This document shows positions 7,590-34,653 of a DNA stretch of 34,653 nucleotides, piece by piece; within the stretch, counting starts at the first letter, position 1, and each line of letters opens with the position of its first letter. Position numbers and translations under genes: made by a program. The stretch is from positions 1-34,653 of the IMG/VR virus record IMGVR_UViG_3300050821_001648; one strand, 5' to 3'. Under the pieces are notes generated by a model. The model ran no database searches. It was not told the origin of the DNA and saw only the letters and a list, made by a program, of their open reading frames with translations. The DNA is from a virus.

Positions 7590-8015
7590 TTAGAAGTCTG
7601 CGGCGATGACGTGGATCGTGATCAGCTTGGCTGCTGTCACAGTCGTCAGCGCTGAAAAGGTTAGCGTGTCCCCCGAGATCAGGTAGAGATACGGATTGCC
7701 GTCGTTGTCAACCGGCATACCGACGAGCAAGACGGGATCGAGGAAGTTCACGGCAGCGGTGCCGGCGACAAAACCCGCGCTAAGCGGAACGGTTTTGGTC
7801 ATAATCGGATAGCTCGTGCCGCCATTGGTGATCGACATCTGAACATCGCGTGCCGACGTATCTGACGATGCGATAATGACGCCGATGATTTTGGACCCAT
7901 TGGCGCCGGCCGTGTAGCCGGTCTTCTGGTTCTGAGCGTCAGCCGGCGCGATCTGAACCCGGTTGATTTGGGGCTGCTTGGGGAATGTCGGGACCGTGTT
8001 TTGGGTAAAAGCCAT
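7590..8015 (-). CDS. phage structural protein, unknown role
   Basis: A 141-residue protein between the collagen-like and adhesin genes. Predominantly beta: KIIGVIIASSDTSARDVQMSITNGG, then DPVLLVGMPVDNDGNPYLYLISGDTLTFSALTTVTAAKLITIHVIA. No catalytic motif, signal peptide or membrane span. It resembles small beta-sandwich proteins often found beside phage fibres or as decoration proteins, but no family was identified. The start overlaps the preceding stop (TGATG). Confidence 0.65.
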   Translation of the reverse strand: MAFTQNTVPTFPKQPQINRVQIAPADAQNQKTGYTAGANGSKIIGVIIASSDTSARDVQMSITNGGTSYPIMTKTVPLSAGFVAGTAAVNFLDPVLLVGMPVDNDGNPYLYLISGDTLTFSALTTVTAAKLITIHVIAADF

Positions 8016-8647
8016 CAGATGCCTCCAAGAACTGCTTGTCTATATAGGGGGTCGAAGATCGGGATGCTACCTGTGAACTTCGCATCAATGCAGACGAGAA
8101 GTTCCATGCCGTTCGTGAACGGGTTCGTCGTGGACGCAGCCACTTCGGTCACGGCGAACGTGTAATAGGTTCCGTTGTCCACGATCGAAGTCAAGTTGAA
8201 GACTATGTAGACAGTCGGAACGTCTTTCTTGACCAGCCGGATTTGCCCAACGAGAACACTCGTCAATAGCGATTGGTTGTTGTTGCCTAGGTGATCTGTG
8301 TAGCTGATCTGGATATGGGTCGCTGCGTTCTGTGTCGCGCTGTCTAAGGACACGTTGCCCGAGCCGGGGTCGCCACTCGTGCTGGTGCTGAACAGATAAT
8401 CCGTGGTATTCGCACCGCCGAATGCACCCGTTGGTCCTGTCGAGCCAGTGGCTCCCGTGGCTCCCGTGGCTCCCGTGGCTCCCGTAGCGCCGGTCGCGCC
8501 AGTAGTTCCCGCTGGCCCTGTTGATCCTGTTGATCCTGTTGGTCCGGTCGAGCCAGTGGCTCCGGTCGGCCCGTTGATGCCTTTCGTCGCGAACCAATGC
8601 TTGCCGTGAGCGAGCCGGCTACCGGGGGTCGGCGTGAAGTCGGCCAT
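8015..8647 (-). CDS. collagen-like tail fibre protein
   Basis: A 210-residue protein. Residues 23-76 are about 18 uninterrupted Gly-X-Y triplets, mostly GAT, GST and GPT, which should form a trimeric collagen-like stalk. It is preceded by a short N-terminal region ([18 protein letters not shown]) and followed by a globular domain of about 130 residues (from [13 protein letters not shown] to the end) with alternating beta strands. Phage collagen-like proteins usually act as fibre stalks. The gene lies between two other fibre-type genes. The triplet DNA contains exact 9-bp tandem repeats, so length variation by slippage is plausible. Confidence 0.85.
8450..8485 (-). repeat. 9-bp tandem repeat (4 copies) inside collagen-like gene
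   Basis: Four perfect tandem copies of GGCTCCCGT on the plus strand (ACGGGAGCC on the coding strand). A second short array with unit TGTTGATCC lies at 8519-8545 (two exact copies and one with a single change). Both keep the Gly-X-Y frame. Confidence 0.9.
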
Positions 8648-30752: not shown

Positions 30753-32252
30753 CTAACGCAAGGGCTTACCGGACCAAGGATTGATTATTGCGCCCGACAT
30801 CTCCCGGCGAGGCATTCCTTTCACATTCGGCCCGAGCGGCACCACCTTGGCGAACCGCCGCGCCATCCACCAGATGCGCGTCGCCGACATGAGGTCGTCG
30901 TTGACCTTGACGATCTTGCCCGTCGGGTCCCGGTGGTACATGCGATACTCGGACATCCACTGCGTCATCTGCATGGAGGTCTTGAACCGACCTTCGTGCA
31001 TTGCCGTGTCGAGGTCGAGGACGCCCGCCTCGGTCGAATAGCCGCCCGTTGTGAACTGCGCGTGCTCCAACAGCATCTTCAGCCCGTGGCTCCGGTAGAT
31101 TTGCGCGATCGGCTCGCCCGACATGTCCGCGACATTGCCATCGTGGGGCCATGCCACCGGAACGTTCGCCCCAATCCGCTTCATGGCCTCGGCGTGGAGC
31201 GTCGGGGAACCCTCCATCATCTTGACCTCGGCCAACAGATGCGCCGTATCGAGGTCTCGGTCCCAGGCGCCGAGCACCGCGGCGAAGGGGTGACTGGTGT
31301 TCGAGCCAGAGTGGGTGAAGTCCACCGCCCACAGCAGCGGCCAGTGAGCCGGGAGACGCAACTGGCCCTCGCGGAACTCGATACCAATGTTCCAGTGAGG
31401 TTCAAGAAGCTGATCGTCGGGGGTCGTGAACACACGCCCGCCGGCCAGATGCGGCGATCCTTCGCGCCGCGCCGGCCACTCGTGCCGCGGGTACGCGCTC
31501 AGGGTGCGCTCGATCATCTCAGGCGTCATGTGGCCGGCATCGGCAAGGGCCATCTGCACGTAGATACGAGCCTTGGCGAACTCCGGGTTCGGCTCAAGGT
31601 AGAGCTTGACGACCTCGGAATGCCCGAATAGGGGCGTGAAGGTCATCCACGAGATGCCGCCCGTGGTGATAAGACGGGCCTGCCCCTCGGTGTAAAGCTC
31701 TAGCGGGGGTTCCTCGTCGAACCAAATTCCGTGAAGGGTATCGCCTTGCCATATTCGGCGATCCTGCTCGTAGGATTTAAATCCAAGGTGGCTAACGCCT
31801 CCTGATACGTGACGAAGGTGAGCGGTGTCAAAAGCGTTTGCAGCGGATCGTGAAGCAGAAGGGTGCCCGATAATTGCCTCTTTGGGGAGAAATCCCGTCC
31901 CCATGAGATCATCCACGCCGGGCGGTCCAAAGAGCTTCGTTTGCGCGACATCTCGGACAAGGATACCCGACGGCCCCGCAGCCCACATTTTGACAGGACC
32001 GCTATTCTGGTCAAATCTCTTTCCCTTCCAGTTGTCAGGGTACACTCCGGTAAGGTGGCGAGATAGCTCAAACGCTCCCGTGTCAGATTTGCCAACACGA
32101 TTACCGGCGATAAGCAGACGCTCATTGAACTGAGAGCCATAATCCATGAACTCCTGCTGTTTTGGATAGGGATGGAAGTAGCGCCAAGCCTCGAACTGAC
32201 GCCGCTCGGTTGCCAGCTTGAGAAAGTCGTAAATTTCGTCGATGCTAGGCAA
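30753..32252 (-). CDS. terL: terminase large subunit
   Basis: A 499-residue protein. The ATPase core is visible: Walker A AGNRVGKS (residues 49-56), a downstream motif VKMWAAGPSG, and Walker B-type GIWFDEEPP with Asp179/Glu180. The nuclease half contains VDFTHSGSNTSHPFAAVLGAWDRD and a WPHDGNVADMSGEPIAQIY segment, as in podovirus terminases. The protein packages DNA through the portal. It overlaps the small-subunit gene by 8 nt. Length is in the usual range for podovirus large terminases. Confidence 0.93.
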   Translation of the reverse strand: MPSIDEIYDFLKLATERRQFEAWRYFHPYPKQQEFMDYGSQFNERLLIAGNRVGKSDTGAFELSRHLTGVYPDNWKGKRFDQNSGPVKMWAAGPSGILVRDVAQTKLFGPPGVDDLMGTGFLPKEAIIGHPSASRSAANAFDTAHLRHVSGGVSHLGFKSYEQDRRIWQGDTLHGIWFDEEPPLELYTEGQARLITTGGISWMTFTPLFGHSEVVKLYLEPNPEFAKARIYVQMALADAGHMTPEMIERTLSAYPRHEWPARREGSPHLAGGRVFTTPDDQLLEPHWNIGIEFREGQLRLPAHWPLLWAVDFTHSGSNTSHPFAAVLGAWDRDLDTAHLLAEVKMMEGSPTLHAEAMKRIGANVPVAWPHDGNVADMSGEPIAQIYRSHGLKMLLEHAQFTTGGYSTEAGVLDLDTAMHEGRFKTSMQMTQWMSEYRMYHRDPTGKIVKVNDDLMSATRIWWMARRFAKVVPLGPNVKGMPRREMSGAIINPWSGKPLR

Positions 32253-32799
32253 GGGACGCTAGGTCCTGTGCCGCCTGTTCATCAACTTCCTCGAAGTCGG
32301 CGTCGATCGGCTTCTCGCCGTCATAGCCTATCAGCCGCGCCGGGTCAAGGTTCAGCGCCCGCGCCATCACTTTGATCTGTTCCAGTTTTTCGGCTTGGGT
32401 CACTTCCACCTTCACATTCACATTTAGGATACGCTCGACGGCCGCGCTGACGCCGCCATCATCCCGCGCCATCTTGATCGCTTTGAAGTGGTCTGCGTGC
32501 TGGGGATTGTCCAGTACCGCCGCGAGAGCGCTGTGGGCCTTGGGCAGCAAAAGGACTGTTCGCCGCTTAGCTTCCTCACGGATGGCAGCGCTGATATCTT
32601 GCCTGATCACTAGCCGATGAGCGTGCTGTGTCAGCGCGTTACGGGTTGGAGCCCGGTAGCCCGCTTGGTCCGCTGCCTTTGTGATGCCCTTGGCGTTGGC
32701 GTTGAATAGGTTCATCACGAACATCTGTTCCTGGGCGGTCAGACGGTTCATGCAGGGGCCGAGAGCGGCGTGGCTGACGAGTTCTGTTTTTCTGATCAT
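32245..32799 (-). CDS. terS: terminase small subunit
   Basis: A 184-residue protein directly before the large subunit. The N-terminal half is a helix-turn-helix-like DNA-binding region (LTAQEQMFVMNLFNANAKGITKAADQAGYRAPTRNALTQHAHRLVIRQDISAAIRE), a pattern seen in small terminases. The middle is helical and the C-terminal end is acidic (EKPIDADFEEVDEQAAQDLASLA), suitable for contacting the large subunit. ATG 32799 is preceded by an AGG near the right distance; a second ATG 48 nt downstream is less well placed. It presumably recognises the packaging start site, perhaps in the adjacent repeat region. Confidence 0.85.
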   Translation of the reverse strand: MIRKTELVSHAALGPCMNRLTAQEQMFVMNLFNANAKGITKAADQAGYRAPTRNALTQHAHRLVIRQDISAAIREEAKRRTVLLLPKAHSALAAVLDNPQHADHFKAIKMARDDGGVSAAVERILNVNVKVEVTQAEKLEQIKVMARALNLDPARLIGYDGEKPIDADFEEVDEQAAQDLASLA

Positions 32800-32845
32800 G
32801 GTGCCTATCTTACGTCTTGCGGTCTATGTTGCGATCTTAGAGGGC

Positions 32846-32873
32846 TAAATAAGATCGTAAGATGGTATTTCAA
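32846..32873 (-). promoter_or_regulatory. possible promoter of the terminase/structural operon
   Basis: On the minus strand TTGAAA (32873-32868) and TATTTA (32851-32846) are 16 nt apart, about 50 nt before the small terminase start codon. One copy of the 18-bp repeat (32849-32866) fills the spacer, so a protein binding the repeat would block or position polymerase. The -10 match is weak. Confidence 0.4.
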
Positions 32874-32910
32874 GAACTTTTTTCGTAAGAAGATAAGATC
32901 GTAAGATGGT
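32849..32910 (+). repeat. two copies of an 18-bp direct repeat plus degenerate copies
   Basis: ATAAGATCGTAAGATGGT occurs exactly at 32849-32866 and 32893-32910, 44 bp apart. Inside each copy AAGAT occurs twice, 8 bp apart. A related CGTAAGAA lies at 32884-32891, an inverted ATCTTACG at 32807-32814, and GATCTTA at 32833-32839. Together they make an iteron-like cluster directly upstream of the small terminase gene. Confidence 0.85.
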
Positions 32911-32972
32911 TTTCTGAGTAAGGTTCGTGTGGGAAAAGTGAGGTATCACGTCCGAGCCGACACGACAGGGGA

Positions 32973-32992
32973 CCCCACCCCTCCCCCACCCC
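32973..32992 (-). other. G-run motif with G-quadruplex potential
   Basis: The plus strand has runs CCCC-A-CCCC-T-CCCCC-A-CCCC. The minus strand therefore carries four guanine runs of 4, 5, 4 and 4 separated by single bases, which fits the compact parallel quadruplex rule. It lies in the noncoding region upstream of the small terminase gene, about 174 nt before its start codon. Confidence 0.75.
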
Positions 32993-33002
32993 TGGTCTCT
33001 AA

Positions 33003-33062
33003 CGCAACATTATTGCGTGGATCGGCCGATGTCGCGCAATATTGTTGCGTAATTATGTTGCG
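33003..33062 (+). promoter_or_regulatory. array of three CGCAA-N5-TTGCG operator-like sites
   Basis: Near-palindromic 15-bp sites lie at 33003-33017 (CGCAACATTATTGCG), 33035-33049 (CGCAATATTGTTGCG) and 33048-33062 (CGTAATTATGTTGCG, one arm changed). The first two also form a longer inverted repeat with each other. They are immediately upstream of a TTGACA -35 box at 33076, so binding there could activate or repress the plus-strand promoter. AATATTGTTGCG from the second site recurs at 30733. Confidence 0.7.
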
Positions 33063-33075
33063 TGATCGAATTAGC

Positions 33076-33103
33076 TTGACATGACAGCCAGAGCGGATAG
33101 CAT
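33076..33103 (+). promoter_or_regulatory. sigma70-type promoter for the 33132 gene
   Basis: Consensus -35 TTGACA at 33076-33081, 16 nt spacer, -10 TAGCAT at 33098-33103. Transcription would start near 33110, about 20 nt before the ATG at 33132. An alternative -10, TATGGT at 33106-33111, is 24 nt from the -35 box and less likely. Confidence 0.55.
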
Positions 33104-33131
33104 GTTATGGTCAACCAACGGGAGCTTAGAT

Positions 33132-33731
33132 ATGACCATGATCGCTTTCGCCGCTTTCGCCGCCACGCTTGTCGGATTAGCTGGCTTTGCGTTAGGAATT
33201 CCCGCCGTGGTGATCGTAATGGGATGCGGCAGTATGCTCGTGTGCTGTCTTGCGCTTGCGGCGATACCGCTCGCGTGCGATGGCAAGCCTTGCCGCTCCA
33301 TCTTCGGCGCCAAGCACGACGGGCTCGCAGCTATCAGCAACCCAGCTTGGCTTTTCGATCAATGCGAACGAGCTTGGCATTGCTCTGATCATGCCGAAGA
33401 TGAAATCGTGCATATCCTGCAATCCGTGCCATCGCTAGGGCCGGCTAAAGCTGGTTTCTGCGCCCAAATGATCTATGGCATATCGGGATGTCTCGACACC
33501 CATAACCTACAGCGCTTCGGCATACGTGAGCGCGAGTTCCGTGGCGCCGAGGCAAAATACAAGCCCGCGACCGTGTGCGCCAAGATCGCCAGCTACAATG
33601 ACCTTTGCCGTAAGCTCGGTGGGACCGCTCACTTGTGGGACAGTTGGTGCGAGTATGTCGCGCACCGCGGCACCGCAGGCACCTTTGAGGCGAATAGCGT
33701 TTCCGCTCTACATCTCGCGCCCTTAAACTGA
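33132..33731 (+). CDS. membrane-anchored protein with helix-hairpin-helix/glycosylase-like domain
   Basis: A 199-residue protein. ATG 33132 (after GGGAG at 33120-33124) is preferred to ATG 33081, which lies on the -35 box. Residues about 4-47 make two hydrophobic spans (AFAAFAATLVGLAGFALGIPAVVIVMGCGSMLVCCLALAAIPLA). From about 85 onward is a different domain: LQSVPSLGPAKAGFCAQMIYGISGCLDTHNLQRFG, matching the PGLGxxKAGFxxQ...CLDTHN pattern of phage HhH-type proteins that resemble DNA glycosylases, and ending with HLWDSWCEYVAHRG and VSALHLAPLN. In that family the Asp in CLDTHN is the expected active-site residue. Fusion of this domain to a membrane anchor is unusual. Function not known. Confidence 0.68.
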   Translation: MTMIAFAAFAATLVGLAGFALGIPAVVIVMGCGSMLVCCLALAAIPLACDGKPCRSIFGAKHDGLAAISNPAWLFDQCERAWHCSDHAEDEIVHILQSVPSLGPAKAGFCAQMIYGISGCLDTHNLQRFGIREREFRGAEAKYKPATVCAKIASYNDLCRKLGGTAHLWDSWCEYVAHRGTAGTFEANSVSALHLAPLN

Positions 33732-33883: not shown

Positions 33884-34255
33884 TTACATTTTAAGGTGGG
33901 ATTTGATCGCTTCCACGTCTTCTCGCAGAGCCGCGATTTGATCGGCCAGCGTAAGGGACGCAACAGCCGGTTGCCAGAACTTTGGTCCTGATTGCGGCTG
34001 ACGCCACATGTTAGGCCGCGTCGAAACCTGCCGCCCGTACAGCATCCGTGCCTTGGCTTCCCCTTTGAAAACATAGGGAAAATCCGTGTTCCCCAGGGTT
34101 GTCAGGTGCTTATACATCTGGCGCTCAAGCTCGGGCTTACCCTGTCCCACGCCAAGAGAGCGGGCGATTTCCTGTGTCGTGAACGTCCTGGCCGGGTCTT
34201 CGTCGCACATGCCAATTACGGCATCCGCCACATAGTCTAAGCTAATTGTGTCCAT
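33884..34255 (-). CDS. winged-helix-like transcriptional regulator candidate
   Basis: A 123-residue protein. The start at 34255 (MDTISLDYVADAVIG) is preferred to the ATG at 34306, which lies in the promoter and would add residues of poor quality. Residues about 22-70 (ARTFTTQEIARSLGVGQGKPELERQMYKHLTTLGNTDFPYVFKGEAKARMLYGR) fit a helix-turn-helix with a wing. The C-terminal 25 residues are a coiled coil (LADQIAALREDVEAIKSHLK) suited to dimerisation. The gene is preceded by TACCCTA-type palindromes. Autoregulated repressor or activator is the working idea; the gene family is not identified. Confidence 0.65.
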   Translation of the reverse strand: MDTISLDYVADAVIGMCDEDPARTFTTQEIARSLGVGQGKPELERQMYKHLTTLGNTDFPYVFKGEAKARMLYGRQVSTRPNMWRQPQSGPKFWQPAVASLTLADQIAALREDVEAIKSHLKM

Positions 34256-34275
34256 ATTACACCCTATTGTAGAGA

Positions 34276-34292
34276 TAGGGTACAGTACCCTA
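34276..34292. promoter_or_regulatory. palindromic operator TAGGGTAC-A-GTACCCTA
   Basis: A perfect 8+1+8 palindrome about 20 nt before the regulator start codon. Related half-sites occur at 34258-34266 (ACACCCTAT), which pairs with ATAGGGT at 34275-34281, and at 34309-34316 (ATACCCTA) over the -10 box of the regulator promoter. It is a likely binding site for the regulator encoded next to it. Confidence 0.7.
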
Positions 34293-34305
34293 CCTATCGC
34301 TACCA

Positions 34306-34334
34306 CATATACCCTAGCGACGCTTATAAATCAA
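34306..34334 (-). promoter_or_regulatory. promoter of the regulator gene
   Basis: On the minus strand TTGATT (34334-34329), 17 nt spacer, TATATG (34311-34306). Transcription would begin near 34299, just upstream of the palindrome, so a protein bound there could block it. Confidence 0.6.
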
Positions 34335-34395: not shown

Positions 34396-34653
34396 ATGAC
34401 CGATCAAATCACATTCGACTTTCAGGACGGCAACGGGCCGGTTCCGGCCCACCAGCATTTCAATGGTGGTGGATGGGTGGCCGATACCGCTTGGGTGTCC
34501 GGCAACGCTTGGGTGTCCGGCAACGCTCGGGTGTATGGCAACGCTCGGGTGGCCGATACCGCTTGGGTGTCCGGCAACGCTTGGGTGTCCGGCGACGCTC
34601 AGGTGTCCGGCAACGCTCGGGTGTATGGCAACGCTCGGGTGGCCGATACCGCT
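34396..34653 (+). CDS. hexapeptide-repeat protein, partial at right edge
   Basis: A frame of at least 86 codons, starting MTDQITFDFQDGNG and open at the window end. From about residue 27 it is made of tandem hexapeptides of the form [WRQ]V[SYA][GD][NDT]A, for example WVADTA, WVSGNA, RVYGNA. This periodicity fits a left-handed beta-helix, in which each turn is three hexapeptides. Such repeats occur in phage and bacterial surface or acyltransferase-like proteins. The function here is not clear because only the 5' part is seen. It is the first gene after the divergent regulator promoter. Confidence 0.75.
   Translation, partial: MTDQITFDFQDGNGPVPAHQHFNGGGWVADTAWVSGNAWVSGNARVYGNARVADTAWVSGNAWVSGDAQVSGNARVYGNARVADTA
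34477..34653 (+). repeat. 18-bp tandem repeat with 72/90-bp higher-order blocks
   Basis: Units of 18 bp (six codons) with core GTGTCCGGCAACGCT or GTGTATGGCAACGCT. The variant GTGGCCGATACCGCT recurs at 34477, 34549 and 34639, giving super-repeats of 72 and 90 bp (four or five units). All differences are multiples of 18, so the frame is kept. Confidence 0.9.

Follow-up and report, generated by a model that had tools for sequence, protein, structure and literature searches.

A conserved two-part element and phage-specific repeats upstream of a podovirus small terminase gene resemble a packaging-start region

The stretch analyzed here, hereafter the window, is the whole virus record (G000), 34,653 bp long. 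Its minus strand carries a podovirus-type late module comprising TerS, TerL, endonuclease VII, portal and major capsid protein, while matches to DNA polymerase A, RusA and an exonuclease lie on the plus strand at the left end. The ends of the window do not overlap and comparable relatives measure 39–48 kb, so it is probably incomplete. No nucleotide similarity to positions 32100–33300 was found among 50,697 phage records. The features of the terminase region discussed below are as follows.

30753–32252, minus strand: terL, large terminase of P22 type, assigned by homology
32245–32799, minus strand: terS, small terminase (184 aa), assigned by homology, synteny and predicted fold
32805–32820, minus strand: inverted degenerate repeat copy, GCAAGACG-TAAGATAG, read from the sequence and separated by 5 bp from the start codon of terS
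32826–32839, minus strand: inverted degenerate repeat copy, TAAGATCG-CAACAT, two mismatches to the 14-bp core TAAGATCGTAAGAT
32846–32851, minus strand: putative −10 of terS, TATTTA, 16 bp from TTGAAA, not significant alone
32849–32866, plus strand: 18-bp repeat copy 1, ATAAGATCGTAAGATGGT, exact, filling the −35/−10 spacer of the putative terS promoter
32868–32873, minus strand: putative −35 of terS, TTGAAA, at +125 from box 1, not significant alone
32886–32899, plus strand: overlapping degenerate direct copy, TAAGAAGA-TAAGAT, three mismatches to the 14-bp core TAAGATCGTAAGAT
32893–32910, plus strand: 18-bp repeat copy 2, ATAAGATCGTAAGATGGT, exact, upstream of the putative −35
32926–32937, minus strand: box 2, degenerate, TTTTCCCACACG, some 70 bp past box 1; in relatives it reads TTTCGCGG or CACGCGG
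32984–33000, minus strand: box 1, AGAGACCAGGGGTGGGG (AAAAGACC-GGGG), the conserved core element
33002–33018, no strand assigned: palindrome ACGCAACATTATTGCGT, beyond box 1
33035–33050, no strand assigned: second palindrome of like kind, CGCAATATTGTTGCGT, from the repeat scan
33054–33064, no strand assigned: TTATGTTGCGT, third copy of the TTGCGT half-site, from the sequence and the repeat scan

A gene for recombination endonuclease VII (PF02945; 30081–30503) lies between the terL and portal genes. The TerL end, endonuclease VII and portal are identical in L009, a 4,369-bp contig from another metagenome, and the phage was therefore present in more than one sample. L009 is the sole near-identical contig; it begins inside terL and stops short of the repeat region.

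The gene beside the repeats had been called a small terminase in a preliminary description made from the letters alone, and this identification was borne out. By single sequence it is weak: the protein matches the PHROG terminase small subunit at an E-value of 4.6e-4, a Pfam search with the window's own TerS returned no match, and neither did a single-sequence search of IMG/VR and phage records, so relatives were reached through TerL and the major capsid protein (MCP). By context it is firm. A homologous frame lies upstream of TerL in relatives found via the major capsid protein, a profile built from eight TerS proteins matches 75 of 80 TerL loci (collected via TerL, not TerS), and six of the eight aligned relatives match PF03592 (Terminase_2; best 1.8e-10). 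An AlphaFold model from 49 sequences (mean pLDDT 85, pTM 0.57) has the SF6 G1P DNA-binding domain as its top PDB matches (4zc3 and 2cmp; probability 1.00, TM by target 0.85 and 0.82) and PaP3 TerS (6w7t) as its third; Foldseek probabilities were 0.99–1.00 and E-values weak, from 0.06 at best to 0.3. Homology, synteny and modeled structure thus agree on a small terminase with a predicted fold of the SF6/PaP3 type.

Both exact 18-bp copies described earlier as lying 44 bp apart are present, the figure being the distance from start to start with 26 bp between the copies, and the three degenerate or inverted copies said to occur within about 100 bp are likewise found, at 32805–32820, 32826–32839 and 32886–32899. 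The true repeat unit is an 8-bp word, TAAGATCG or TAAGATGG, arranged as tandem pairs, two of them perfect and two inverted and degenerate, with a third overlapping octamer in addition. Six of the eight TAAGAT/ATCTTA hexamers in all 34,653 bp of the window fall within the 101 bp from 32807 to 32907, the densest cluster of any hexamer in the window; 40 whole-window shuffles gave at most four copies of any hexamer per 110 bp. At up to three mismatches the core TAAGATCGTAAGAT has five matches in the window, four of them inside the cluster. Shuffled sequences averaged 1.03 and none of 100 reached five; the shuffles were first-order and ignore relatedness. The repeats are real and beyond chance. That they arose by chance and serve no function is scarcely credible; the 18-mer has no counterpart in relatives, which would suit that reading, but such clustering was reached in none of the 40 and none of the 100 shuffles.

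A search for the repeats in related phages, proposed in the preliminary description, came back empty: the 17-mer ATAAGATCGTAAGATGG stands upstream of no other terS in IMG/VR. Its four matches there belong to one homologous coding stretch in an unrelated AT-rich phage group and were rejected as counterparts of the repeats. The window's 18-mer is private to its contig in IMG/VR, and the repeats are not the conserved part of this region. Relatives have other repeats at the same place. The closest TerL relative (L062; 59%) has TGTAAC repeats instead, and others have GCTAAC (L059), TGCGAA (L133), CGCAATAA (L088) or AGAGCAG (L118). Over-represented words (p up to 0.01) occurred in 16 of 39 regions upstream of terS and in 2 of 74 controls, the latter being coding DNA, which repeats less.

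What is conserved lies 70–90 bp further upstream. There, many relatives carry before terS an element consisting of AAAAGACCGGGG (box 1), a gap of about 70 bp, and then TTTCGCGGC or CACGCGGC (box 2). In the window AGACCNGGGG occurs once, at box 1. Across 75 terS loci, which include near-identical and repeated contigs, 34 have exact AGACCGGGG upstream of terS in the terS sense and none has it on the opposite strand; allowing up to one mismatch raises the count to 46. The remaining 29 loci comprise 13 with at most 208 bp of upstream sequence and 16 in which at least 300 bp is present and box 1 is absent. Box 1 was also seen upstream of terL in MW202898 and in Rhizobium phage RHph_N3_2, the latter having GTGACCGGGGTGGGG 1.2 kb upstream of the terL match.

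Conservation of box 1 within the 46 profile sequences is by construction, because these rows were chosen by a box-1 seed; the spacing of box 2 and the scans with TTAGAGACCNGGGGTGGGG and GAAAAGACCGGGGTGGG are independent of that seed. Unbiased scans of IMG/VR gave three matches to TTAGAGACCNGGGGTGGGG, all three upstream of a terS homologue, and 17 contigs with GAAAAGACCGGGGTGGG. In 15 of the 17, representing 11 of 13 distinct sequences, the pattern immediately precedes terS-terL. All 15 of these terS-linked contigs have CGCG 71–75 bp from the start of the pattern, at exactly 73 bp in 12. The other two (L189 and L190), which have neither terS, terL nor box 2, were set aside. When the 46 sequences are aligned at box 1, the second box, TTTCGCGG or CACGCGGC, appears at +70 to +79, with 33 CGCG-type matches in that interval over the 46 sequences, box 2 having played no part in row selection. 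A spacing of about 70 bp is near seven helical turns.

Several other matches were rejected. The scan of the genome collection with TTAGAGACCNGGGGTGGGG gave two matches, one (L061, Methylorubrum) where a transporter-type frame begins and no terminase is present, and one (L060, Sessilibacter) in which terminase queries had no match; both were taken as chance. A box-like GCAGACCGGGGGTGG in L002 and L003 was dropped, there being no terS of this type beside TerL. An Rfam search for an RNA element returned nothing, and RNAalifold found no pairs and no consensus RNA structure in the element, which therefore has the look of a signal in DNA. The reading of an intrinsic bend is weak: A/T tracts are more frequent at +70 to +140 than in the other bins, but their number there, 22 of 46, is close to the 18.1 expected from local composition. 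Directly after box 1, on the minus strand at 32970–32993, GGGGTGGGGGAGGGGTGGGG has four G-runs with one-base loops and is a strong G-quadruplex candidate, only partly retained in most relatives.

The far side of box 1 carries phage-specific sequence of its own kind. CGCAACA/TGTTGCG words are enriched beyond box 1 (22 observed against 3.6 expected, in 14 of 42 phages), and the ACGCAA..TTGCGT palindromes of the window at 33002–33064 belong to this type. The inverted octamer copy at 32826–32839 contains ATGTTGCG, which is also found in these palindromes. In one relative (L122), a regular 60-bp array of alternating GCAAC and GTTGC words, spaced about 10 bp apart, lies some 40–100 bp beyond box 1.

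Iterons of a replication origin, bound by a phage initiator, would offer another account of such an arrangement. The region is intergenic between divergent operons, contains tandem repeats and is AT-richer than its surroundings. However, no initiator gene was recognized among the frames tested, no sharp GC skew switch occurs at the region, and box 1 is oriented with terS and linked to terS-terL in 15 of the 17 unbiased matches; an origin is accordingly very unlikely.

The cluster also overlaps the putative terS promoter. The earlier statement that one repeat copy lies in the spacer of this promoter is literally true for TTGAAA-16 bp-TATTTA on the minus strand, but the promoter itself is weak: it scores 8 of 12, which 67% of shuffles equal, and a promoter scan of the window did not call it. 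In relatives with a good promoter the −35 lies mostly at about +102 to +135 from box 1. Enrichment of CTTGACA between box 2 and terS (12 observed against 0.9 expected, in 12 of 46 sequences) indicates a sigma-70-type promoter. Four relatives (L059, L081, L088 and L106) have palindromes or repeats that cover the terS promoter and the sequence immediately before it, and the octamers of the window hold the same places around its weak TTGAAA-16-TATTTA.

This position makes a plain operator a serious rival explanation. The octamers would then bind a dedicated repressor or activator, encoded by the phage, that acts on the late terS promoter and has no role in packaging, and the bipartite element would be a separate signal. 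Operators typically contain tandem octamers of this sort. In the window the spacer is occupied by copy 1, copy 2 is found upstream of the −35, and the inverted copies cover the leader to within 5 bp of the start; GCTAAC or CTTAGC palindromes lie upstream of and over the −10 in L059, L081 and L088; and the region is divergent, with terS running leftward and a plus-strand frame at 33081/33107 rightward. Because the repeats overlap the putative promoter and the palindromes or direct repeats of relatives do likewise, the operator, listed as an alternative in the preliminary description, is supported by the anatomy at least equally, even though the window's own promoter scores no better than shuffles. 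Against it, Pfam recognizes no regulator in ten early or flanking frames, the small gene at 33884–34306 has no homologue in the relatives searched, and the adjacency of the cluster to a conserved element is left unexplained. We regard an operator for another regulator as possible, if on balance doubtful. A separate cluster of CCCTA/TAGGG words at 34258–34320, upstream of the small minus-strand gene at 33884–34306, is perhaps the operator of that gene.

Among known packaging sites, the closest in layout is that of the Bacillus phage SPP1. The SPP1 pac overlaps the terS promoters and the start of the gene, and TerS binds the flanks while TerL cuts between them, as described in passages of PMC6316719. 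In SPP1 the operator role and the packaging role fall on one site. Passages of PMC4737164 describe three sets of direct repeats in this pac, one of which, boxA, is missing in the close relative SF6, and a DNA-binding domain of SF6 TerS with little preference for the pac repeats; repeats in a pac therefore need not be TerS sites. The present region shares with SPP1 and SF6 direct repeats that change from one close relative to the next and TerS relatives of the PF03592 type, and the solved structure nearest to the modeled TerS is the DNA-binding domain of SF6 G1P. Its repeats, at 32805–32910, reach to within 5 bp of the terS start and would also lie over the terS promoter, as in SPP1, if the weak putative promoter is genuine. 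It differs in that the window is from a podovirus with a P22-type TerL whereas SPP1 is a Gram-positive siphovirus, and in that the bipartite GACCGGGG...CGCGGC core does not feature in the available passages describing SPP1. The SPP1 cut sequence, CTATTGCGGC (PMC5615212), is likewise not near the region: at up to two mismatches the window has 49 matches where 39.3 are expected, and the interval 32554–33252 contains none of them. The likeness to the SPP1 pac is thus one of anatomy, and we do not claim membership of the SPP1 type.

Other systems are more distant. The pac of P1 has hexanucleotide repeats on either side of the cut; short repeats flanking a core beside a small packaging gene are common to both, but the repeats differ. 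The large terminase is of P22 type, yet the window lacks the P22 pac sequence: the 22-bp AGAGAAGATTTATCTGAAGTCG had 0 matches at up to three mismatches. The P22 pac sits inside the P22 terS gene, according to passages of PMC9611059. Podoviruses of the PaP3/LUZ24 type (Bruynoghevirus) have a related TerS (32% over 115 residues to the L049 relative; fold 6w7t), but lack box 1 in the stretches read. Their ends are direct terminal repeats or disputed cos ends (PMC8540360). The record of phage Delta, annotated with a 182-bp terminal repeat, starts at a sequence matching PaP3 position 867, not the claimed cos at position 1 (L142 with L183).

A fixed cos or short-terminal-repeat site, with the core as cutting site and the octamers as cosB-like anchoring sites, would also place such features beside terS. 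In lambda the order is cosN, cosB R-sites and Nu1, which the sequence of core, repeats and terS recalls. Contig ends are more frequent in the interval 900–1500 bp upstream of TerL, with 18 of 69 at risk, than they are elsewhere; nine were read by eye as falling within about −41 to +68 of box 1; and box 2 is similar to the 20-mer 'cos', itself disputed, of PaP3, a phage with a related TerS. These ends are nevertheless scattered and not confined to a single base, and assemblies can break at GC-rich hairpins. About 10 of 19 contigs compared end in an exact terminal overlap of 99–127 bp and three more share an inner repeat of this size, so that these are circular assemblies opened at varied places; six show neither overlap nor inner repeat, including the window and G022, the latter sharing no more than a few words. 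Circular assemblies fit headful packaging better than fixed ends, a pattern compatible with headful packaging and no proof of it. The TerL is of P22 type, which is usually headful, the TerS of the window matched a fold class other than that of lambda, and PaP3 lacks box 1 in the stretches read. We consider fixed ends unlikely.

That the repeats may be the binding site of the small terminase had been suggested by analogy with cosB/pac sites, which often lie beside its gene. The 18-bp repeats are not conserved, and that part of the suggestion loses ground; what sustains it is the conserved, sense-oriented, fixed-spacing element upstream of terS, which fits a packaging start. A fixed core with changing repeats is matched in SPP1/SF6, and on that ground we propose the core as the start, the octamers as promoter-overlapping sites and the palindromes as the other arm. 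We tentatively favor, with a confidence somewhat short of even, the reading that the repeats are the terS-proximal arm of an SPP1-like pac region, with TerS as the most likely ligand and the core as packaging start.

The mechanism we hypothesize is as follows. The bipartite core of box 1 and box 2 probably marks where the terminase starts packaging, and phage-specific sites flank it, namely the ACGCAA..TTGCGT palindromes beyond box 1 and the TAAGATCG octamers between box 2 and terS, the latter being predicted protein-binding sites over the terS promoter and leader. We infer that TerS is the likeliest ligand of the octamers and that cleavage would occur near the core. Binding would nucleate the packaging complex, and TerS on the octamers would also occlude the terS promoter, leading to autorepression of the terS operon. 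A terminase reportedly represses its own synthesis, to go by the title of a study in the reference list of an SPP1 paper (PMC6316719). As the same binding would both nucleate packaging and block the promoter, packaging and late-operon expression would regulate each other.

Taken more broadly, a large, mostly uncultivated podovirus lineage with P22-type TerL may share a packaging-start signal, GACCGGGG and CGCG[G/C] about 70 bp apart, with fast-changing flanking repeat arms; we put this forward as a tentative generalization that could well fail. The phage packaging literature was searched by the element's sequence and by terms, at the level of listings and passages, and did not yield the element, which is undescribed in this sense of being absent from the literature searched. 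If the proposal is true, control of the terS promoter diversifies jointly with packaging specificity, and the cutting core remains unchanged. How small terminases locate the packaging site is called unclear and controversial in passages of a 2022 review (PMC9611059). A two-part signal of fixed spacing upstream of diverse terS genes offers a defined substrate for binding and cleavage tests and a natural comparison of a fixed core with phage-specific repeats, and it permits prediction of pac from sequence alone in metagenomic phages. The repeats alone are an ordinary finding; the adjoining conserved element raises their interest.

Two further repeat tracts lie elsewhere in the window. An open frame at 34396–34653, running off the end, consists of 18-bp DNA repeats, also recovered by the repeat scan of the window, and encodes a YdcK-type beta-solenoid (PF18836). 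Nine-base tandem repeats (GTGGCTCCC) occupy 8439–8563 within a minus-strand frame at 8015–8647.
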